Below are positions 621 to 52,726 of a DNA stretch of 64,000 nucleotides, one piece after another. This DNA is from a virus, in the IMG/VR virus record IMGVR_UViG_3300028283_000002, positions 88,666 through 152,665 of that record; one strand, given 5' to 3'. The stretch's first letter is position 1. Each line of letters begins with the position of its first letter. A model generated the notes under the pieces. The model saw nothing but the letters and a program-made list of their open reading frames with translations. It was not told the DNA's origin and did not search any database. Both the position numbers and the translations under genes were made by a program.

Positions 621-1128
621 CACTCATATCTTTAATCTTTTTAACAATCTCTTTTTGTATAGTTTTAGTCAATTCATCTACCATCATCTGCTCAAATTCT
701 TTCATATGCTCTTCATACGTTTTCTTTTTTGTAGACTCAGGTGAATCTGGAAAAGTCTTAGGTAATTCTATATCAACGTCGTAATAATCACCTAACATTT
801 TTAATTTATTCCAATCATTTTTGTGAATAGAATTTCTGTACCATTTAACGTAAAAAACACATAAAGAATTAACAATTAATCCATTCTGTAACAGATAATC
901 GTGACTATCAGAATCTTCCCCACAATCTGTTTCGTGCCATCCTCGCCACCCGTCATCGTTGAATTTTTCTGGTTTGTCTATATCTGAATAATTTGCTGAT
1001 CCTCTTTTAGCAAAGCTAAAAGCAGTCTCTATTAGAAGAGTCAATTCATCGTTGATAGGATCTTTTAACTTTTCTTCTTTCTTAGGTTCCATATATAGAA
1101 GAAACCTAGATGTATCATTCCTGTGCAT
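607..1128 (-). CDS. Hypothetical protein, 173 aa
   Basis: Soluble, charged protein of up to 173 residues, ending in a lysine-rich helix (KKIKDMSDGKK). The middle has a Trp/Cys/Asp-rich stretch (GWRGWHETDCGEDSDSHDYLL) followed by a segment rich in Trp, Tyr and Val that looks like a compact folded domain. The start at 1128 overlaps the upstream membrane-protein gene by 14 nt. An in-frame ATG at 1092 (MEPKKEEKL) is an alternative start that avoids the overlap. It sits in a tightly overlapping minus-strand cluster. I do not recognise the family. Confidence 0.65.
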   Translation of the reverse strand: MHRNDTSRFLLYMEPKKEEKLKDPINDELTLLIETAFSFAKRGSANYSDIDKPEKFNDDGWRGWHETDCGEDSDSHDYLLQNGLIVNSLCVFYVKWYRNSIHKNDWNKLKMLGDYYDVDIELPKTFPDSPESTKKKTYEEHMKEFEQMMVDELTKTIQKEIVKKIKDMSDGKK

Positions 1129-3961: not shown

Positions 3962-4618
3962 TCATCCAACATTTGTAGCTGGCAAAGTTTGTACCACAGG
4001 TAAAGCTGCAGGTGTAATAAAAGTCATATCTTCACCGTAGGCGGTTCCAACACTATTAGTAGCCTTTATTCTAAAATGATATAAAGTGCCAGGAATAAGA
4101 ACTGAAGTACTATTATACCCACCAGAACTTAATTGTAGTGAGCACATCACTGTTTCATTTCCGTTAACAACTCCAAATGAAGCTTCGTAATCGTAAGTGG
4201 TTCCTGTGCCGTAATCAAAATAAACGTGTGTAGATTCACCCAGTGGGTTACAACTACCATTGAGAGTAGCGAATGGTGGTGATACAGCGTTCCAATTAGC
4301 ACCACCTCTAACTTCTTGTGGTCCTTCCGGTGGAGGTGTACTATCCCATCCAACTAACCCGTAAACCCCAGGTGGTAAATCTTCTATAATGCAGTTATAA
4401 TCTTCTGCAGCTAAGATCATTTCCTCGGGTGTATGAGCAGTAATTTGTGGAGCTGGTATGTTCTCAATTGTGCGATACATATTGTTATTAATTTTCAGAT
4501 CCACCTTAAACGGGGCGATGCCGTCTTGTATGTGTATTTTTATCATACCATCAGCCAATCCGTAGCCTGATACAGGTAATACACAACCCCAAAATTTTAA
4601 ATTGTAATTTTCTTCCAT
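3962..4618 (-). CDS. Fibronectin type III/SprB-like repeat protein (probable fibre or adhesin)
   Basis: 218 residues with no signal peptide. The N-terminal part (IKIHIQDGIAPFKVDLKI, then LPPGVYGLVGWDS) resembles SprB/gliding-type beta repeats of Bacteroidota. The C-terminal part (ATLNGSCNPLGESTHVYF ... LYHFRIKATNSVGTAYGED) is a fibronectin III-like module. Such modules decorate phage tail fibres and capsids and bind glycans. It is a single-gene unit: a terminator lies after it and a structured leader before it, and the large structural gene upstream ends in its own terminator. A virion decoration or fibre role is inferred. Confidence 0.65.
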   Translation of the reverse strand: MEENYNLKFWGCVLPVSGYGLADGMIKIHIQDGIAPFKVDLKINNNMYRTIENIPAPQITAHTPEEMILAAEDYNCIIEDLPPGVYGLVGWDSTPPPEGPQEVRGGANWNAVSPPFATLNGSCNPLGESTHVYFDYGTGTTYDYEASFGVVNGNETVMCSLQLSSGGYNSTSVLIPGTLYHFRIKATNSVGTAYGEDMTFITPAALPVVQTLPATNVG

Positions 4619-4845
4619 AGTAATAATTACTTTTTGTCCCTAATAAGAGATTAAGAAAAATTGTTTCGAGTATAATTTAATCTTAACGGGTATCGTATTC
4701 TTCCGAAAAGCATCCTATGAGGATAGGCGTAGATAACCTAATTATTAATATGTCCCTATACGGGTGAGGCTTGTAGCACGTGTAAACACGTATGGTTATT
4801 TAACTGACTAGTCAGTATTTGTTATTCGTCCGTGATATATATAAT
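4619..4845 (-). other. Unexplained structured leader or small-RNA candidate
   Basis: About 225 nt without a reading frame, upstream of the FN3-like gene and downstream of the terminator at 4846. It is less AT-rich than its surroundings. It holds several hairpins: CCTAT/ATAGG around 4712-4726, ACGTGT/ACACGT around 4779-4792, and a perfect 14-bp palindrome ACTGACTAGTCAGT at 4803-4816. It could be a long 5' leader, a small RNA or an operator region. No known riboswitch is recognised. Confidence 0.35.
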
Positions 4846-47896: not shown

Positions 47897-48756
47897 ACAA
47901 CGAAATAGCATTTTTTGATTTAGATGGAACCTTGTGGAATATCAAGAATGACGACATATGGATAATAGATAAAGAAAAACCATTTAGACCAGTTATCATT
48001 CTTAATCATCTTGATTTTTCCTTGATCAAAGCAGGAAGATATAGAAAAGATGAATTACCATTAGATTACAACGGTCAAATATATTACATTAGTAAAGATT
48101 TATTTGAAAAAATTAAAAAGAAATCTGGAAGTGAAAATATCGAAAGATTCGGTATTTCTTTTATACCTATGCTTAGAAAAGAAATTCTCGATAAAAGAGA
48201 AGTTGATATACTTAGCCATAACATTGAGCATCTTAGGTATAATAAGTTCGTAGATATTGGTTTACTTACAGCTAGATCAAATCAAAGGAACCATTCAGAT
48301 CTTGTTAATAAACTTAGATTAGAATTAAAGAAAATAGGAATAGAAATAAGTAAAATATTCTTTGTTGGTAGTGGAGTTCATAGTGGAGTAGATCCTAAAT
48401 TGAAAAGTTTCGTTCTACTGGAACATCTTTTAGGACTTAAAATTAAAGATGGTAGATTTATATCTGTTAAACAAGACTGGTATAAGAAAGTTAGTTTCTA
48501 CGACGACGATAGTAAAAACATTGATTACGCCAACGATATTCAAGATTGTTTTGAAGAACTTTTAAGAAAGACAGACGACGAACTTTTTAGAATTATAATA
48601 GATAGAATTGAGACATTCGAATTAACACTTGATACTTATCTTGTAAGTGATAATGAAGTAAATAGATTTAAGAAGAGTTCTGTAACGTTAAGACCACCTT
48701 TAAGATTTCCTATAAAAGAAAGTCTAAAAAATTATAATGATTTTTTAAGGAAATGA
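47893..48756 (+). CDS. HAD-superfamily hydrolase
   Basis: 287 residues. HAD motif I is FFDLDGTLW at residues 7-15 (nucleophile and acid/base Asp), motif II is LLTARSN (Thr), a Lys follows, and motif IV is SFYDDDSKN. A hydrophilic insertion of about 80 residues lies between motifs I and II (a cap). The C-terminus (RFPIKESLKNYNDFLRK) resembles the tag pattern but at the wrong end. Substrate unknown: nucleotide, sugar phosphate or polynucleotide 3'-phosphate. It is overlapped by coupled genes on both sides. Confidence 0.75.
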   Translation: MNNEIAFFDLDGTLWNIKNDDIWIIDKEKPFRPVIILNHLDFSLIKAGRYRKDELPLDYNGQIYYISKDLFEKIKKKSGSENIERFGISFIPMLRKEILDKREVDILSHNIEHLRYNKFVDIGLLTARSNQRNHSDLVNKLRLELKKIGIEISKIFFVGSGVHSGVDPKLKSFVLLEHLLGLKIKDGRFISVKQDWYKKVSFYDDDSKNIDYANDIQDCFEELLRKTDDELFRIIIDRIETFELTLDTYLVSDNEVNRFKKSSVTLRPPLRFPIKESLKNYNDFLRK

Positions 48757-49295
48757 TAACTAAATTCAAATTAAAAAACTGCATTCTTTTATGTAAAAAT
48801 TGTCATAATAAATTACATTATAGTATTAATTCTAATGTAGATAAAAAAGATAAAAAGATATTTTTAGAATATAAAGGTGTAAATGGTTGTATAATATGTG
48901 GATATAACGAATGTGTAGCATCTTTAGAATTTCATCATAAAGACCCAAAAGATAAATTATTTCTTATATCAAATAAAAGTCATTACTATAAATCAATAGA
49001 AAGTTTAAAAATTGAAATAGAAAAAGAAATAAATAAATGTGATGTTTTATGTTCAAATTGTCATGCTGAATCTCACCTCAACGATGGATTTTATGCATCA
49101 CACGAAGAAGAAATAATAAAGAAATCTAAAAATATGATTGAAAAAATGATGAAAATAGATAGAGATATCATTTTATATCTTTTCAAGAATGGTTATAGAC
49201 AAATTGATATATCGAATGAATTGGGGATTAAAAGAGGAATAGTATCATCTATTTTCAAAGAATTAGGGCTTCCTAAAAAAACCATTGAACATTGA
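48753..49295 (+). CDS. HNH endonuclease with HTH tail
   Basis: 180 residues. The nuclease core is CIICGYNECVASLEFHHKDP, then KDK ... CDVLCSNCHAESH, a CxxC/HH/CxxCH HNH module. A partial duplicate of the second half (ILLCKNCHNKLHY) opens the protein, which suggests that an older HNH gene was overwritten or tandemly recombined. The C-terminus (ILYLFKNGYRQIDISNELGI) is a helix-turn-helix. It is coupled to the HAD gene by ATGA and followed by a terminator. Homing or mobile role by family. Confidence 0.75.
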   Translation: MITKFKLKNCILLCKNCHNKLHYSINSNVDKKDKKIFLEYKGVNGCIICGYNECVASLEFHHKDPKDKLFLISNKSHYYKSIESLKIEIEKEINKCDVLCSNCHAESHLNDGFYASHEEEIIKKSKNMIEKMMKIDRDIILYLFKNGYRQIDISNELGIKRGIVSSIFKELGLPKKTIEH

Positions 49296-49323
49296 AAAAC
49301 CAGACTAAAAAGTCTGGTTTTTC
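49296..49323. terminator. Bidirectional intrinsic terminator
   Basis: AAAACCAGACT pairs with AGTCTGGTTTTT around an AAAA loop. It ends the rightward operon and, on the minus strand, would mark the 3' end of the structured non-coding region. Confidence 0.85.
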
Positions 49324-49329
49324 ACACTT

Positions 49330-50280
49330 ACCTCATTACCTGTCTTCCTCCAGGATTGACTTTCGTCTTATCGGATTCATATTTGGACTTTTATTTTGTG
49401 AATGTTACCATTCACGAGATAAGTTTTTTGCTCTTAAACTAAATGGTGGTTAAAACTCTTGAAAATTTAATCCCTTTTCGGCTTTCTGAAGGCCTACTTC
49501 GGTTTGGATTATCTGTCCCATTGCTGGGTCAAACCATTTAAAGATTGAAACTTTGAAGAAGTAAAGATGAGTTCAGAATACTCAAAATTATTTTTTCAAA
49601 CTTTCAAAGAACTTTTAAAAAACTAAAAGAACTGGTCATTATCTGCGCAATATCCTCTCTAGGAGGAATAGACAGGATGAGCCTTGGATATATCTTTCAG
49701 CGTTTCAAAGAACTATAAGAACTAAGTCGTAATAGCTGTTACATTTCACAGTAACAAATTAAGTGCGAAGGGCCTCCACCTTTCGGTCATACACAGTCTC
49801 ACTTTCCTCACACACTATTACAGCCGACTGAACCTAAACTTGTACTCAGTCCTATAAGAGCTTAAAAATGGAAGCGAGTGCCCTACTCGCAAATGAGGGA
49901 AAATAAAGCCTAGTATATAGGGAATTTAAGCCTCATATAACTATCCATATCATTACCCAATTAAGGGCTACTTGGAATCGTTTACCATTTATATTCAAAG
50001 AACTTGCTTCGAATTCTTATACAAAGATAAGAAGTCTTGTTGAGATAAAAAAATCTTTTGAAAGAATTTTTATCAAATTTTAAAATACCTACTTGTGGGT
50101 TGAATGGTTATCTCGCCTTTCAGTATTCAGTCAGTCTGTGGACTGAAAATTTGATTATCTCATTTTGACTATACAAAGATACGCCACTTTCACGAGATAA
50201 AAAAATTATTTGATAAATTTTTTAAAACAACACTAAACAAAGAGCTTTTACTAAATCGTCAGTAATAACAGATTTTATAT
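49330..50280 (-). ncRNA. Candidate large structured non-coding RNA, about 0.95 kb
   Basis: Nearly 1 kb without a credible reading frame, less AT-rich than its surroundings. On the minus strand it forms many hairpins. These include CCCA-GCAA-TGGG closed by GGTTTG/CAAACC (49501-49535), ACC-GAAA-GGT (49778-49787), GCGAGT/ACTCGC (49874-49890), TGTTAC/GTAACA (49737-49756) and a 6-bp TCAGTC/GACTGA hairpin (50131-50146) inside an 8-bp long-range stem (50108-50115 with 50193-50200). The GNRA loops point to the minus strand. AGTTCTTTGAA occurs three times and TTATCTCGTGAA twice. Size and structure recall the large phage RNAs GOLLD and ROOL, but I cannot confirm membership. Confidence 0.5.
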
Positions 50281-50337
50281 ATTATATATACCTGAGAAAT
50301 TCCTTTGTTTTAAAAAAATTCAAGAAAATATAAAACT

Positions 50338-50505
50338 TTGAAAGACAAACCTTTAGATAAAAAAGAGACTATTTGGCTTTGTCCAGACTGTGATGGGAAA
50401 GGTTATATTGAAAAAGGACAATGTCCATTATGTAAAGGTAAAGGTGAACTTAGATTTACCACTTCCTCTCAAAAGGATTTCGAAGATCCCCAGCCTTCTG
50501 ATTAA
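50338..50505 (+). CDS. Small DnaJ-type zinc-finger protein, 55 aa
   Basis: A TTG start at 50338 gives LKDKPLDKKETIWLCPDCDG, KGYIEKGQCPLCKGKGEL and an acidic tail ending at TAA 50503-50505. The two C-x-x-C-x-G-K-G elements are the zinc-finger signature of DnaJ/Hsp40 proteins, which bind unfolded polypeptides. It has no J-domain. It converges on the terminase gene and overlaps its 3' end by 50 nt, so the natural C-terminus may be shorter or altered. The non-ATG start is uncertain. Confidence 0.5.
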   Translation: MKDKPLDKKETIWLCPDCDGKGYIEKGQCPLCKGKGELRFTTSSQKDFEDPQPSD

Positions 50506-52726
50506 ATGGTGATAAGAAAGGTATAGGTTTTATATCAGGCTTAACTTTAGGATAAAATCTTTTATACGCTCCACTAAATGATTGAAAATCAACCATTGAT
50601 CCGTCGTCTTTACTACCTAAGAATTTAAGTATAACTTGTTTCTCTTTTTCGGTTATATCGTAATCTGAATAAGTATCTACCATATTTCTGTAATAGTTAT
50701 TATCAAATAAACTACTTAAATTTATAAGAGACATTACACAATCATCGTTGCCTGTTTCTGAACGATAAGTTATATCCCCTCCTGGTGTTTCTTTCTTAGA
50801 GAAAGATTTTAATTCTATGATATTCTTTTCGTTATGAAGAACTAAATTATCTTTCTTAACAGCGTCTTGAAAATCTTTTAAAAGTAATTTCTTATTATAA
50901 CCTATAAGTAATCCTATCTTTGGTTTCTGATCTGTTTCTCTATGTTTATATCTGGCAAATATAGCGTCCATAAAATCATTATTATCATTGAATACGTGGC
51001 GCATGTTATTAACCAAATCGTTACCTAAATTTTTATTCATTTCCACTACTATCTTAACTTTCTCTGGGTCAAAGATTTCAAAAACTAAAAGGTATAATAT
51101 ATGAGCAACTTCATTTATAGAGTAAACGTTATTTCTAAATAAACCTATTTGTTCTAGTTTAAATAAGTCATATTTATTTGAATAAAAGTCTTTCTTTTTT
51201 TCTATGAGTTTTTCGTCCTTCATCATTAATCTAAAGATATTGAATACAGTATAATCTAAACCTAATCCTTCAGCCAAATCTATACCTATCGTGATATAAT
51301 AGTCTTTAGCTTTGGCTAAATCAAATATTTCTGGATGATCTAACATGAAAGTTAGACTGTCGTATGGAAGAGTTAATTTCTTTTCAAAATTTTCTAAATG
51401 AGGAGTTCCAAATTCGTACTGTTCGTTCATGAAACTTTCAAACATAACACTATCGAATAACAATTTATCATCTGTAATGAACTGAATCTCGTACTCCTGA
51501 TTGAACATCGCTTTACCACCAATAAGAGATGTTTGTTCTTCTTGCCAGTTAGTTATTCTTACGACTTCGGGTAAAGGTATGACCTCATTTATTCTTATTG
51601 TTCTAATTTCGTCGATTCTACAATTTTCCCTAACTGTTTTACCATCGTCTTCAAAGAATTTAATGAAATACCAAGTTTCTTGTTCAAGTCTTTTACTATA
51701 CATTTCGTAACCTAGTTCTTGTAATCTATTTAATATTTCATCTTGTGTAACGTTATATTGACGCATTTTATGTTCAAGAAACATAAACTTTGTATCTCTT
51801 CTACCTTTAACTTGATGCCAGTAGACACGCATAGCCTCGTATTTATTCCATCTTGGGTCTTCTTTTGGTCTTTCAGCGTCTACTAATAATTCCCAGAATA
51901 AATTATAACCGTCAGGTGTTGATGTTATAATAATTTTAGAATTTTCTACCTGTACAACAGTAGGTACAACAGCACCGTAGTACTGACGTACAATATTCTC
52001 AGGAACTTTCGCGAACTCATCGAGATACAACAAGTCAATGGTAAAACCGATAGATGGATCTTTAGATCTCGCCTGACTTTGAATTCTACTATTATTATCA
52101 AAGGCTATCTGTTTTTCGTTCCAGTTTGTTACACCTGTCTTTAAGAAGAAAGGTAACAATTTATAAATATCCTTTATCTTTCTGATAATTTCTTTTACTG
52201 TATCACCTTTATTAGCCACGATCATAACACCTTTATCATCATTAAACATCACAAGATGTAGAATAACAATGGATGCTGAAACCGTATTTAAACTTAATAT
52301 ATCGTTTGTATAATAACTATGTTCATTTGAACTAATGGACAGATCGAACATTGAAACATTATGTTTTAATTTTTTGATAGATTTAACTTTAGAAGGGCCT
52401 AGCTTAGTTAGAACGATATCGTTAGTTGTTAGATCTTTAACAAATTTGATCATGTGTCCTTCGCAAAAAATAGTATGTATATCGGCACATTCTAGTTTTA
52501 GTCCATTTTCGAGTTCTAGTTCGTGTATAGCGTATGGTTGAGTAAAATTTATTTCTTCGATTGGAACAAAGCCGTAGTCTGTTTCGACCAATAAATTTTT
52601 AATTGGTAGAATATTGATCACTTTTTTCAAAGGATCATCTTCGTCAAATTTAGTATTTTTATATTCGTATTTTTCAATTAGTTCTATTAACCAGTATATT
52701 ATATTTTTTAAAAAATTTTTAAACAT
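50456..52726 (-). CDS. Large terminase C-terminal part with split-intein C-fragment
   Basis: 756 residues. Residues 1-147 are a Hint/intein C-part: NLLVETDYGFVPIEEI, LECADIHTIF and the ending EHSYYTNDILSLN, followed by T148 as +1 residue. From T148 (TVSASIVILHLV) the chain aligns with T4 gp17 just after the Walker A Lys. Walker B is LLYLDEF (about 232-238), the coupling motif is IIITSTPDG, and the nuclease has IGIDLAEGLG, VVEMNKN and DDCVMSL. The ATPase N-part with Walker A and the intein N-part are not in this window. Trans-splicing is needed for function. The stop-start overlap with the upstream radical SAM gene is 8 nt. Confidence 0.85.
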   Translation of the reverse strand: MFKNFLKNIIYWLIELIEKYEYKNTKFDEDDPLKKVINILPIKNLLVETDYGFVPIEEINFTQPYAIHELELENGLKLECADIHTIFCEGHMIKFVKDLTTNDIVLTKLGPSKVKSIKKLKHNVSMFDLSISSNEHSYYTNDILSLNTVSASIVILHLVMFNDDKGVMIVANKGDTVKEIIRKIKDIYKLLPFFLKTGVTNWNEKQIAFDNNSRIQSQARSKDPSIGFTIDLLYLDEFAKVPENIVRQYYGAVVPTVVQVENSKIIITSTPDGYNLFWELLVDAERPKEDPRWNKYEAMRVYWHQVKGRRDTKFMFLEHKMRQYNVTQDEILNRLQELGYEMYSKRLEQETWYFIKFFEDDGKTVRENCRIDEIRTIRINEVIPLPEVVRITNWQEEQTSLIGGKAMFNQEYEIQFITDDKLLFDSVMFESFMNEQYEFGTPHLENFEKKLTLPYDSLTFMLDHPEIFDLAKAKDYYITIGIDLAEGLGLDYTVFNIFRLMMKDEKLIEKKKDFYSNKYDLFKLEQIGLFRNNVYSINEVAHILYLLVFEIFDPEKVKIVVEMNKNLGNDLVNNMRHVFNDNNDFMDAIFARYKHRETDQKPKIGLLIGYNKKLLLKDFQDAVKKDNLVLHNEKNIIELKSFSKKETPGGDITYRSETGNDDCVMSLINLSSLFDNNYYRNMVDTYSDYDITEKEKQVILKFLGSKDDGSMVDFQSFSGAYKRFYPKVKPDIKPIPFLSPFNQKAGDLRNPFERKW

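Follow-up and report, generated by a model that had tools for sequence, protein, structure and literature searches.

A putative stable-RNA operon downstream of the terminase gene of a huge Bacteroidota phage

What is encoded by about 1 kb of phage DNA that holds no protein gene? The question is raised by a locus beside the terminase large subunit gene (terL) in IMG/VR record IMGVR_UViG_3300028283_000002, of which we analyzed a 64-kb window (positions 88,666 to 152,665 of the 152,665-base contig). An original prediction had proposed that the minus strand of this gap may encode a single giant structured RNA, either GOLLD or ROOL or a new class. Here, we argue that the region is, on balance, probably an operon for stable RNAs in a huge Bacteroidota phage, whose separate structured RNAs would act in trans.

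Results

With an open reading frame (ORF) cutoff of at least 60 amino acids, positions 49296 to 50455 (1,160 nt) form the longest gap in the window, the next two measuring 606 nt (at the edge of the window) and 477 nt. A conserved-looking DnaJ-like zinc-ribbon ORF of 55 amino acids (50338 to 50505, plus strand), which overlaps the 3' end of terL (50456 to 52726, minus strand) and whose DNA is kept in relatives, trims the gap to about 49296 to 50337; no other ORF-free stretch in the window is as long as this gene-free remainder. The noncoding gap is therefore real, as predicted; it is also conserved in other huge phages and appears to be read on the minus strand. A recoded protein gene was rejected, since reading TAG as an amino acid yielded no frame above 53 amino acids and TGA read-through yielded at most 97 amino acids, on the opposite strand. 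The gap is less AT-rich than its surroundings, albeit mildly (33.5% GC versus 30.5%). On the minus strand, downstream of terL, it holds promoter P1, module A, promoter P2, boxA1, module A2, module B, boxA2, module X, boxA3, a remnant of module C, module D, and a terminator, in that order.

The best-supported part inside the window is module B (49724 to 49838, minus strand), a structured RNA of about 115 nt with three helices. A pattern scan found it again in L185/L186, contigs of an unrelated phage, at the head of a tRNA array, behind a Bacteroidota-type promoter and ahead of tRNA genes. In an alignment of four sequences, 97.5% of cells were paired, four pairs had changed on both sides, and the covariation score was 0.317 (at most 0.10 for slid controls), with three pair types both at pair 1 of helix 2 and at pair 2 of helix 3. 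A covariance model built from these four sequences (R2) matched the window, one of its own members, at 142.7 bits with helices P1 to P3 all paired; its matches were confined to the window, L002, L008, L185, and L186. The GAAA-capped hairpin of the original prediction (ACC-GAAA-GGT) lies within this module, its pairing kept in L186 as CTC-GAAA-GAG, and all four sequences could form a CAGUC/GACUG pseudoknot. Between module B and tRNA-Met, L185/L186 also carry hairpin-rich noncoding sequence that may hold more RNAs of the same array.

The signals around module B resemble those of host stable-RNA genes. The -7 box of Bacteroidota promoters is TAnnTTTG, and it occurs in candidate promoter P1 (TTTTTTAT ... 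TATCTTTGTA; 50172 to 50204, minus strand), whose motif is copied exactly in P2 (50020 to 50052, minus strand), recognized from this motif and from comparison with relatives. Both lie in a 55-nt repeat that holds TATCTTTGTA, and the full motif occurs exactly twice in the 64 kb, as P1 and P2 only. The P1 -7 box is kept in L002, L003, and L008 and has a variant form in L006; the P2 region shares 77% identity over 73 nt with intergenic DNA of a Riemerella phage, 31 nt upstream of a coding sequence. About 17 nt beyond P2 follows the first of three copies of GTTCTTTGAA, which we term boxA-like elements: boxA1 (49994 to 50003), boxA2 (49704 to 49713), and boxA3 (49603 to 49612). These exact copies are the only ones in the 64 kb (0.46 expected), all within the gap and all on the minus strand, so that the repeated elements noted earlier comprise the 55-nt repeat and this triplet. 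A 30-nt element around boxA3 is 88 to 97% conserved in L002, L003, L006, and L008. Elements such as AGTTCTTTGAAAGAATGAA and GTTCTTTGACATAATGAAAG, the counterparts of boxA1, are found in the 16S leaders and 16S-23S spacers of Bacteroidales; judging by position and sequence, we read them as the boxA of these bacteria. A host-type promoter (P2) followed by boxA1, ahead of apparently untranslated RNA, is the arrangement of a boxA-led stable-RNA operon. At the far end, the predicted terminator at 49296 to 49323 proved to be a perfect 14-bp inverted repeat (49293 to 49306 paired with 49311 to 49324), a putative bidirectional intrinsic terminator (49293 to 49324) serving both the RNA cluster and an HNH endonuclease gene. 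Matches to BTnc231 and BTnc060 in this region were judged to be due to chance.

Versions of the cluster were found in LR756501.1, a 735-kb phage about 96% identical to the window over 49718 to 50500, and in other IMG/VR terL contigs (L003 and L004, nearly identical to each other, L006, and L008). Bacteroidetes, the hosts of Lak phages, are also the predicted hosts of mahaphages larger than 634 kb (PMC7162821). Modules were gained, lost, and reordered among these relatives: L008 has module B before module A and, separating the cluster from terL, a methyltransferase gene, and L003 has another unit.

In relatives, including LR756501, boxA3 leads a further RNA of about 320 nt, module C, which also occurs in Lak megaphages, in other large phage contigs (L017, L018, L019, L020, and L184), and in three contigs of Bacteroidales metagenome-assembled genomes. 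It often sits in tRNA arrays, those of Lak phages among them. Across 12 aligned sequences, 96% of cells were paired, 52 of 75 pairs showed compensatory two-sided changes, and the covariation score was 0.654 (at most 0.134 for slid controls); helix P4 ends in a GNRA loop, which is GAAA in all but one case (GUAA). A boxA-like element stands directly or shortly before module C in L017, L020, L142, and L144, with a recognizable TAnnTTTG box upstream of it in L017 and L020.

Module C had no match above threshold in Rfam 15. When the manA model (RF01745) was run on whole records, however, its best match fell inside module C in six of the six records with any match, at 12 to 25 bits against a gathering score of 55.2; cobalamin and ROOL models gave no matches on the same test. 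Module C thus appears to resemble the manA RNA of cyanophages, faintly but specifically, as would a distant relative.

The window itself seems to have lost module C. The module C covariance model (R1) matched neither the window nor its own contig, so that membership of this RNA family does not extend to this locus, where comparison with L002, L003, and L008 leaves at most one degenerate hairpin, probably the last one of the module (TTGAGTATTCTGAACTCATC; 49566 to 49590, minus strand), the rest being deleted. The window matches LR756501 up to 48752 and again from 49718, with short conserved islands only in between. The replaced segment (48753 to 49717) consists of the HNH gene on its left (48753 to 49295, plus strand; PHROG HNH, E = 1e-21), which is absent from LR756501, and the 3' half of the cluster, where module X (49613 to 49703, minus strand), found in this phage only, stands in for other sequence in LR756501. 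Homing-type co-conversion may have brought about the replacement; among the HNH relatives examined, no second copy of the neighborhood was found.

The remaining modules were recognized by conservation beside terL and may be structured as well. Module A (50072 to 50155, minus strand), a putative structured RNA of about 85 nt adjoining terL, has a closing helix (AUCAAAUUUU/AAAAUUUGAU), a hairpin, and a conserved CUGAAAGGCGAGAUAA..CAACCCA; it is conserved in L002, L003, L006, and L008, with weak covariation over four sequences. Module A2 (49851 to 49993, minus strand), a conserved RNA-like segment, follows boxA1 and has homologous segments in L002, L003, L008, and probably L006. Module D (49337 to 49415, minus strand) combines a hairpin with a GGUAAC loop (49398 to 49415), whose stem appears to covary, and a conserved CCGAUAAGACGAAAGUCAAUCCUGGAGGAAGACAGG (within 49337 to 49384); a stretch of 48 to 60 nt is 83 to 92% conserved in L002, L003, and L004, and a related one is present in L008. 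For module D, the search pattern proved too permissive, and the scan returned chance-level matches only.

Folding energy was better than that of shuffled sequence for the whole region (z = -5.2 for the minus strand and -3.8 for the plus strand) and uneven by part (z = -1.45 for 49718 to 50175 and -3.2 for 49325 to 49717); the comparative evidence therefore carries the case. Of the other hairpins in the original prediction, the GCAA-capped one (CCCA-GCAA-TGGG) is present, yet inside a segment unique to this phage. The long-range 8-bp stem is an exact match (TTATCTCG/CGAGATAA) that does not persist in L008 or L006; it was rejected as a structural element for want of conservation and is probably not transcribed, because one arm lies upstream of a promoter -7 box.

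Several observations concern the surroundings of module C and of terL. In L017 and L020, a second shared RNA-like element (ATTATGAMACACTAGGTTAA...AGTTCCACCYTAAYGG) comes right after module C, and Lak-phage tRNA arrays in L012/L014 hold more conserved, unannotated RNA-like segments between tRNAs (about 4300 to 4410 and 4500 to 4625). In the module C array of L150, a subthreshold match to YrlA (Y RNA-like; 38 bits) covers two tRNA-like pieces (946 to 1022, minus strand). In L144 (CACWTU010000010.1, 1018 to 3859), a bacterial-looking contig, boxA and module C are followed downstream by a UG39 (DRT) reverse transcriptase gene; a reverse transcriptase partner was rejected, as the phage records with module C had no reverse transcriptase match and other UG39 genes lacked module C. 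In L142 (CAJOLJ010000044.1, 4295 to 6797), module C, tRNA-Met, and tRNA-Lys adjoin a Ro60/TROVE gene; a Ro60 partner was likewise rejected, for although one phage (G003) has a TROVE gene elsewhere, LR756501 and the Lak phages have none. That module C is a normal bacterial RNA was rejected, as it was present in 1 of 393 Bacteroidales genomes. At the start of the terL product lies a segment that resembles an intein and ends in SLN|TVSAS; its N-terminal half is not adjacent, and the alignment of the product to T4 gp17 begins only at residue ~148 of the product. This looks like an atypically split, trans-spliced TerL intein (AceL-TerL type).

Discussion

The arrangement suggests the following course. 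Two host-type promoters would drive transcription of the minus strand, and the boxA-like elements, copied from host rRNA design, would bring in the host's Nus machinery for NusB/NusE-dependent antitermination, allowing untranslated RNA to be made without premature termination. The transcript would end at 49296 to 49324 and would probably be cut into separate RNAs (A, A2, B, X, and D; in relatives also C), which may act in trans during infection. Modules B and C move between terL-side clusters and phage tRNA arrays, and because they otherwise live in such arrays, we favor, as the least certain step, a role on the side of translation or tRNA function, protecting or supporting it against attack by the host.

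Some points weigh against this interpretation. The folding energy of 49718 to 50175 is unexceptional, and module X is without relatives. Beside terL, at five loci, is the only setting in which modules A, A2, and D were seen, with covariation that is weak at best, and they could be cis elements. Module C at least, being lost here, would be dispensable or replaceable.

A cis-acting terminase region, whether a packaging (pac) site, a 3' untranslated region, or a terL regulator, would account for the position of the cluster, which is downstream of terL throughout this phage group. We consider it unlikely, given that the cluster has promoters of its own, that a methyltransferase gene separates it from terL in L008, and that in other phages modules B and C are found well away from terL.

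The single giant RNA of the original prediction, about 0.85 kb long and folding as a unit like GOLLD or ROOL, whose hallmark is assembly into homo-oligomeric nanocages, we regard as quite improbable. A structured noncoding transcript of the minus strand is supported by conservation, by the covarying helices of module B, and by the signals present (promoters, boxA, terminator); the low folding energy of the whole region, the single terminator, the similar length, and the kin of modules B and C in tRNA arrays, where ROOL and GOLLD also often occur (PMC12286853), fit a single molecule as well. That it is one molecule is unsupported, because there are two promoters, the second of them internal, and three boxA-type elements, and because the modules move and swap independently, being reordered among relatives and, for B (L185/L186) and C (Lak phages, among others), also found singly. 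Nor did the proposed identity survive covariance searches: against Rfam 15, no family reached its gathering score in the window, tRNA and transfer-messenger RNA included; ROOL (RF03087; threshold, 99.1 bits) had no gathering-score match in the window and no match in nine related phage records, the window's own included; and GOLLD had no gathering-score match in the window or related loci. The ROOL model gave a single match, at a subthreshold 24.5 bits, on module C of L017 only. The suggestion of a new class holds insofar as modules A, B, and C belong to no Rfam family above threshold, but module C seems distantly akin to manA.

Decay of the region at a recombination hot spot beside the HNH homing endonuclease, leaving RNA remnants without present function, would explain the replaced segment, the loss of module C, and the HNH gene at the breakpoint, but is very unlikely in view of the intact promoters, boxA copies, modules A and B (with the pairs of B), and module D core and of the near identity to LR756501 from 49718 onward.

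The stable-RNA operon reading has a wider form, which we offer tentatively and with somewhat less than even confidence: huge Bacteroidota phages may carry modular, swappable arrays of structured RNAs that mimic rRNA operons, and modules B and C, both undescribed families, may form one superfamily with manA, acting in trans beside phage tRNAs. If so, the cyanophage manA RNA, now filed as a cis-regulator, would belong to a large phage RNA superfamily and might be an independent RNA of the phage, not a riboswitch. Structured RNAs such as ROOL and GOLLD are abundant in phage tRNA islands; this locus adds a portable RNA of about 115 nt (B) and links to one of about 320 nt (C) in the 735-kb and Lak phages, and an rRNA-type antitermination signal would explain how such RNAs could be produced in quantity.

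The cluster belongs with the structured RNAs of phage tRNA islands, a kind already known, in which B and C are families new here. Like ROOL and GOLLD, structured phage RNAs without known function that often lie near tRNA islands (PMC12286853), its RNAs are structured and two of them have kin in tRNA arrays; unlike them, its modules measure 85 to 320 nt each and are unrelated in sequence and structure. Its GTTCTTTGAAAGNTTGAAA-type elements are nearly identical to those of Bacteroidales rRNA leaders and 16S-23S spacers, whereas the RNAs downstream of them are not rRNA (no small-subunit rRNA match was found in the contig). In direct comparison with manA of P-SSM2, P-SSM4, and S-CREM1, module C appears to share the outer architecture of these RNAs, with the closing helix P1, a GUGACUGAAUAA-type motif after its 5' strand, and a final 3' hairpin with a UAnnCAGGAAU loop, and manA, known from cyanophages and marine metagenomes, lies inside a tRNA array in S-CREM1; module C differs in its length (about 320 nt versus 192), in a central domain of its own (GGUUGGCCAACC, GACGUAAGAA, GACAAAUCG), and in usually being led by boxA.
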